Source: Meiothermus ruber DSM 1279 (GTDB taxonomy: Bacteria > Deinococcota > Deinococci > Deinococcales > Thermaceae). From it: DNA of 64,000 nt. How positions within the stretch are numbered: position 1 is the stretch's first letter; each line of letters starts with the position of its first letter. The position numbers and the translations under genes are program-made. Of the stretch, positions 14,653-55,726 are shown in pieces. The stretch lies in NCBI RefSeq assembly GCF_000024425.1, contig NC_013946.1, forward strand, positions 248,001-312,000, in the 5' to 3' direction. The notes under the pieces were generated by a model. The model searched no databases. It was not told where the DNA came from and saw only the letters and a program-made list of their open reading frames with translations.

Positions 14653-14682
14653 TTACCCCACCCCAGGGGGGGTGGGTATACT
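14653..14682 (+). promoter_or_regulatory. CsoR-like operator and promoter of copZ-csoR-copA
   Basis: TACCCCACCCCAGG followed by GGGGGTGGGTA (14654-14678) forms a G/C-tract dyad flanked by TA ends, as expected for CsoR sites. It overlaps a TATACT -10 box at 14677-14682. The same TACCCCACCCCAGG core recurs at 19155 before the second copper ATPase. Confidence 0.75.
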
Positions 14683-53347: not shown

Positions 53348-53885
53348 CGCTGCTGGGCTCCGGCAAGCAATTGCACCCCGACGGCTCCAGGCTGGGCGGA
53401 CTGGTCGTCCTGCGGCGCCGTTAATGGCCTGCCCCACACGATGCGTACGGCTGGTTTAGCCCAGCCGGCAGGGGGTGGGTTGCTGCTGCGAATTTCCACG
53501 GCTTTGGCTGCACCGGAAAATGCATCGGGGTGCGTTGCTGGGTTTATTCATCACACCCTGCTTCGGGCTGCAGGTGTTACGTGGATGTGCATTTTGCACA
53601 AGGGGTTGGTTTTCACCGTGTTACCCTGCATGGGAGGTTTAACGGAGGAGTTCACGCCTTGAGAAGGGGAGGTAGCAAGCACAGGCGAGATGGTTCAAGC
53701 CATCCGATTGAAACTTTTTTCCGGCAGGGCTTGCTGAAACAGTCCCGTGCTGAATTGGCCCTGGTGGTATGCCTTTATGCCCTCATAGCGTCGCGCCACA
53801 GCCAACAGGGCCTTCATGCCGGACAGGTGTGTGGTCGCCCATATACCGCTTGGGGCCCTTGGGGAATTGAGCAAGGAGTGTGTGC
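53348..53885. other. Long intergenic region before the SARP-like gene
   Basis: No convincing full-length gene. It contains a GGCTGG/CCAGCC hairpin (53449-53466) without a T-run, and a possible 76-codon ORF from TTG 53659 with GGAGGAG upstream, whose TGA overlaps the next ATG. Base composition is less GC-rich than neighbouring genes. Confidence 0.6.
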
Positions 53886-55726
53886 ATGAATAAATCCGGA
53901 GGACCCATTCAGCTCAAACTATGGGGCCCGGCCCGGCTGGAGTACCAAGGCCGCGAATTAAAGCTCCAGCGCAAGGGTCTGGCCATTCTGTACTACCTGG
54001 CCCTGGAAGGGGCTACCCGCCGCGAAGTGCTGGCCGACCTGCTCTGGGGCCACTCGGCGGCCTCACAGAACCTGCGGGTTGAGCTGCACCGCCTGGGTCA
54101 GGCCCTGGCCCCCCTGGGCTACACCCTGTTTAAAGCCGGCGAAGACCCCTTGCAGCTCCCGCCTTTCGTGACCCTGGATCGCACCCCGGCGCCGGGGGCG
54201 CCCATGGAAGGGCTGGAGGAGATCTCGGTGGAGTTCAGAGCCTGGCTCGAGGGCCAGCGCTCACAGCTCATGGCCAACAGCTCCGGCACGGTGGGGCGGG
54301 AGCGGCTGGTACAGGAGGTGGCCTCGCAGATCGTGTTGCCCTCGGTGTTGATTCTGACCGGACGGCCCGGTTCCGGGCGCACGGCCTTTGCTCAAGCCCT
54401 GGCTAAAGCCCTGGGGATGCCCTTTTTAGAGGGCCCTCGAGGCGGCGGCAAGGCCCTGCACTACCTGCGCCCCCCTACGCCGATGTCTCGATAGAACGCA
54501 TCCTTACCGACCGGGACGGGCTTTGGGTGGTGGAGCGCTCCTCCTATGGCGAAGATCCCAGGCTCATCCTGGAGCTGAGAAGCCATTACCCCGCCGAGCG
54601 CACCCGCTACATCACCCTGCCGCCCCTGTCCTGGGCGGAGGCCCGCGCTTCCATGCTTTCCAACCTACCCTTTGCCCAGGCGGCGCGGCTGTTTCTGGCC
54701 TCGGGGGGCTCGCCCGGCCACCTGCGGGAGCTGCTGGCTGTGCCCCACAACGGCACCGAGATGCCCTTGCCCCAGCGGGTGCGGGCGCAGGTGCAGCTCG
54801 AGTCCCGGATGCTGTCGCTGGAGGCCCGGCTGGCCCTGGAGCGCCTGTCGGTGCACCCCGGCCCTTACAGCCAGGGTCTGCTGGACGCCCTCGAGGCCAC
54901 GCCCTACCTCGACGAGCTCGAGCGCCGTGGCTGGTTAATTTACGCCGGCCAGTGGCAGTTTTCCGATGACGCCAGCCGCCGGGTTCTGTACCTGGGGTTG
55001 CAGCCCGGGCGGCGCCAGCAGTACCACCGCCAGGCCGCCCTGCAGTGTGCGATGGAGGAGCAGCGCATGGCCGAGGCCTACCACCGCCTGATGGCCGGGG
55101 ATACCGCCGACTGGGGCACCTTTGTCAACACCTTGCCGGGCTGGACCCGCTACGGCCTCAAGGCCTGGCTGGGTATGCACGAAAACCTTCCGATGGGCCC
55201 CAGTACCGGCGAGGCGGCTCGAGGCAGCGAACTGGCCTTGCTGGAAGAGGCTCGCTTTGGACAGGGCTTCGAGGTCGAAGGGCGTCATGTGCGCTGGATG
55301 CGCACCCCCTCCATGAGCAGCGCTTCGGGCATTATCTGGGCGGCGCATGACGAACCTTCGCTGCTGCACCTCAAGGGCAATGCCTACGTAGAGAACCCCC
55401 TGGGGGTGGGCATCTCGGGGCGCGCTGCCCCTCTGATGCTTGAAATTCAAGAACCCCGCGAAGCCCGCATCATCTTCCTCCCGGGTATTCAGGCGGGGGC
55501 CCTGGCCGATAACGCCCTGTTGTTGCCTTTGCAGGAAGAGCTGGATGTCTGGTTCCGGGTGCCAGCCGGGGCTAGCATCCGCCTGACCAGCAGCGCTGAG
55601 AGCGGCCTGATCGACCTCGAGGTCACCTCCTACCGCGTGGCGCCGCCTCCTTTGGCGCAGTCGGCTCCCAGAGTGGAGGTATTCGAATTTTTTCGTAGCG
55701 CGGTAGAAGCCGCCAGGAAAAGCTAA
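53886..55726 (+). pseudogene. SARP/AfsR-like regulator with P-loop domain, frameshifted at a C run
   Basis: Two frames together encode about 613 residues. The first (ATG 53886, after CAAGGAG) has an OmpR/SARP-like winged helix at residues ~5-75 and a P-loop-like [11 protein letters not shown] in which the usual Lys is Arg. It stops at 54494. The second frame continues smoothly from about 54476 (YADVSIERILTDRDGLW) to 55726. The shift coincides with six C residues at 54470-54475; seven would restore one frame reading HYLRPPYADVS. It may be a mutation, a programmed slippage site or a sequence error. The C-terminal ~200 residues are not recognised. It could instead be two separate proteins. Confidence 0.7.

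Follow-up and report, generated by a model that had tools for sequence, protein, structure and literature searches.

Does the C6 run at which two open reading frames of Meiothermus ruber DSM 1279 meet mark a damaged gene, a sequence error, a site of programmed slippage or simply the border between two genes? The locus lies in a stretch of 64,000 nucleotides of the chromosome (hereafter the window), for which an earlier note had proposed that one added C would join both frames into a single SARP-like regulator of about 613 residues. The elements of the locus are the following:

53886..54494, forward strand, reading frame of the 5′ fragment (ATG at 53886, TAG at 54492-54494, 202 amino acids)
54407..55726, forward strand, 3′ reading frame with 439 open codons
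54470..54475, forward strand, C6 run; relatives have one base more here, in the codons CGN CCN CCN TAY for R195-P-P-Y198

Reading frames at the C6 run

Inspection of the sequence places the run between a G at 54469 and a T at 54476. The start codon of the 5′ fragment is preceded by the Shine-Dalgarno-like sequence AAGGAG, and its product, which carries an N-terminal DNA-binding-like domain and a P-loop-like motif, shows 98-99% identity over residues 1-198 to both the joined protein and the closest relative, before it ends with a few out-of-frame residues at the TAG. Homology in the 3′ frame starts approximately at the C run. Adding one C to the run indeed yields a joined protein of 613 residues with no internal stop, as the earlier note had predicted, but judged by the window sequence alone the junction could lie at any point within 54407-54491. 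The gene is flanked by argS and mutM, an arrangement shared by L032, L035, G012 and G001.

The 538 bp between argS and the regulator-like gene (53348-53885) are without a convincing gene and show several indels compared to relatives, which is consistent with noncoding sequence.

The gene is uninterrupted in other Meiothermus species

The genus search covered 18 Meiothermus genomes, namely that of the window and 17 others, each from a different species. In all 17 other genomes, the joined protein is encoded in one uninterrupted frame with 86-98% identity (one copy ends at a contig end), and the two-piece form was found exclusively in the genome of the window. Two sister genera contain one-frame matches at 66-71% identity, while Thermus-like genomes show approximately 40-50% identity, with most Thermus copies being uninterrupted. 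When 111 genomes of the order were searched, a frame of approximately 520-680 codons nearly always enclosed the 3′ part. One homologue from a related genus (G034:C61:53164-54330) contains a single in-frame TAG inside the matched stretch, possibly an independent break in this one copy.

In a DNA alignment with the 17 relatives, the window row contains a single gap column over the whole gene, and this column is located at the C run. On the basis of this alignment, exactly one base is missing at the C run of the window. A C7 run is present in four relatives (L002, L003, L004 and L015), the first three of which are the nearest ones; in the other relatives, the run is broken by other third-position bases, for example as CCCGCCC. 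Thus, R-P-P-Y is conserved as amino acids, but the nucleotide run is not.

Homopolymer runs and frameshifts elsewhere in the genome

For an estimate of how common such differences are, 464 kb of the M. ruber genome were compared with 480 kb of the relative G012, and blocks of 500 bases or more gave approximately 160 kb of alignment. The 464 kb contain 421 G/C runs of exactly six bases and 120 of seven. Among 43 aligned 7-base G/C runs of G012, 28 were identical in M. ruber, 14 were substituted, and a single one, the C6 site, differed in length; it is also the only within-gene frameshift in the aligned part. The C6 run itself is common; it is the uninterrupted homologous frame to either side that stands above chance.

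A protein-level census relative to G012 revealed nine candidate frameshift pairs in the genome of the window, including one duplicate. The other candidates were rejected on alignment, since they represented gene boundaries, intergenic indels or junctions, or antisense open frames.

A further length difference was observed at position 14666, where a G7 run of the window is opposed to G8 in G012. This run is located just upstream of a gene for a small CopZ-like metal-binding protein (MTQLKIEGMSCNNC...), and the difference likely falls outside the coding part.

Selection on both halves and age of the break

Comparison of the window with its two nearest relatives (L002 and L003) gave dN/dS values of 0.048-0.055 overall, with 0.024-0.027 for the 5′ part and 0.052-0.069 for the 3′ part. 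The value between L002 and L003 (0.042) is near those of the window. Where the window departs from a codon shared by L002 and L003, 63 of the differences were synonymous and seven non-synonymous, and all seven window-specific non-synonymous codons carry residues found in other relatives. According to these substitution patterns, both halves are under strong purifying selection, with no decay visible. Since no decay has begun, the loss is either very recent or not real. These data, together with the intact frame in every relative, bear out the earlier view that both halves keep coding character and that the break is recent or a sequence error.

Origin of the missing base

Taken as a whole, the locus is very probably an otherwise intact, conserved gene of 613 residues with a young one-base deletion that is private to the M. 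ruber record, be it a real loss or a sequence error; none of the points collected speak against a private one-base loss. In this scenario, a C7 run would have lost one C, and the resulting C6 would break the frame. We regard it as an ordinary one-base loss or a sequencing slip and not as a special decoding site. The literature search revealed no paper on the locus.

According to a large survey, frameshifts that are unclustered and confirmed by BLASTP should be expected to stem from sequencing errors and not from genuine indels (PMC3711429). The M. ruber site resembles the GeneTack singleton class of that study, as one genome is affected, homologues are uninterrupted across the site and restore the frame by homology, no shift site is conserved and a homopolymer is present at the break; nothing notable differs. 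This prior is, however, weakened because the genome was Illumina-polished. The published data comprise 9.84x Sanger and 27.4x 454 coverage in addition to the Illumina polishing, with a stated error of less than 1 in 100,000 and 38 pseudogenes (PMC3035268). For DSM 1279, PMC7448439 refers to another record, CP005385.1.

The data show that one base is missing, where it is missing, that the frame is intact in the relatives and that decay is absent; real loss and consensus error both fit, and the choice between the two is an inference. Slightly favoured, with about an even chance, is that the sequenced strain lost the base through replication slippage, i.e. a very young knock-out, whereas an error in run length in the consensus of 2010 is given a little less than that; this split is a matter of judgement. 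The availability of Sanger and Illumina data besides 454 argues against a pure error, while retention of the gene by all other species of the genus and the absence of subsequent decay speak against a real loss.

If the deletion is real, the strain would make a truncated product of 202 amino acids and no functional full-length protein. The type strain would then be without this protein, which matters to users of the reference strain. Otherwise, the result is mainly one of annotation hygiene, as the M. ruber record has probably either divided this regulator-like gene in two or dropped it, although it is intact in the other Meiothermus species examined.

Slippage, phase variation and separate genes as alternatives

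The earlier note had also suggested a used slippage site, as in Thermus dnaX. Here, either RNA polymerase would add a C or ribosomes would shift by -1 on C_CCC_CCT, giving both the short and the 613-residue form. We consider this very unlikely, and the same holds for its fullest version, in which C6 is real and slippage of polymerase or ribosome at this GC-rich run yields enough full-length protein for selection on the gene to continue, so that the thermophile would compensate its frameshift. By inspection, the upstream frame reads CGC CCC CCT, so that both codons would still pair as proline after a shift by -1, and the purifying selection on both halves agrees with use of the site; recency explains this selection equally well. 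One would expect a shift site in use to be retained, but in the 17 relatives the protein is made from a single frame, the run is interrupted in most of them, and no conserved shift site with the same frame arrangement was found. As neither the split nor the run persists, its use is unsupported. Furthermore, the 100 nt downstream fold no better than shuffled sequences (z = +0.88, pseudoknots being outside the model) and thus provide no sign of the stimulatory RNA structure of programmed -1 ribosomal frameshifting. With E. coli RNA polymerase, detectable insertion needed at least seven T or eight A (PMC6260861), and a precedent for C6 was not found in the literature.

The comparison with T. thermophilus dnaX, which shares with our locus the related bacterial host and a homopolymer inside a coding region, does not hold on closer view. 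In dnaX, slippage occurs at nine A/T bases and the full-length product is encoded in one frame (PMC5009743); in M. ruber, the run is a C6, the long product is out of frame and the run is not conserved. The arrangement is hence opposite to that of dnaX, and a slippage site is disfavoured because the relatives neither need one nor conserve the run. The C6 site opens no new decoding mechanism.

Phase variation, in which a C6/C7 tract would switch the regulator on or off between cells or strains, appears slightly less probable still. It could draw on the in-frame C7 of four relatives, including the three nearest, since runs of this kind can be expected to contract by mutation. However, the run is short and unconserved in the genus, runs of six and seven bases are common in the genome, and the off state was not observed in any relative.

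Two separate genes, a DNA-binding protein of 202 amino acids and a C-terminal protein with its own start, are the least credible reading: both frames are open, but the split form occurs in no relative of the genus, the break lies inside a nucleotide-binding-like region, and the first in-frame starts after it (GTG at 54527 and 54530) are without a Shine-Dalgarno-like sequence. Translational restart for the 3′ fragment is likewise disfavoured, as no start with a ribosome-binding site is present near the break.

Protein family and domain architecture

Two motifs, one on either side of the break, are relevant for the classification of the protein:

54360..54383, forward strand, P-loop-like motif GRPGSGRT, 5′ of the break, with R at the position of the Walker A lysine
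54518..54538, forward strand, GLWVVER, 3′ of the break, suggested by alignment as a possible Walker B-like strand

The designation as SARP-like was appropriate for the N-terminal domain only. This domain is 37-47% identical to the N-termini of large Meiothermus regulators, of which the two examined contain BTAD, and it gave a weak match below the cut-off to the OmpR-type winged-helix domain Trans_reg_C (E = 0.0095). BTAD (PF03704), the domain defining SARPs, showed no match at the locus but three matches elsewhere in the genome. The protein shares with the large SARP/BTAD-type regulators (e.g. L021 and L028) a similar, putatively winged-helix-like N-terminus and a P-loop region further on, but differs by the absence of BTAD, by its length (613 versus approximately 1000 amino acids) and by the arginine replacing the Walker A lysine.

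With respect to STAND/AAA ATPases, the motif GRPGSGRT deviates from the Walker A consensus GxxxxGK[ST], Pfam AAA scores were below the cut-off, and the matches to AAA ATPases in a PDB profile search were local and confined to the P-loop. AlphaFold2 models of four full-length relatives had a mean pLDDT of 36, too poor to use. Comparison with the homologues L002-L017 and L094-L105 revealed the arginine in place of the lysine in Meiothermus and a variable motif in Thermus-like homologues (GPPGSGRR, GRLGSGQR, SPLGSDPE). This motif variation suggests that the nucleotide-binding domain is degenerate and perhaps non-hydrolysing. The break falls between the P-loop-like motif and the rest of this domain, and neither piece would therefore form a complete nucleotide-binding domain.
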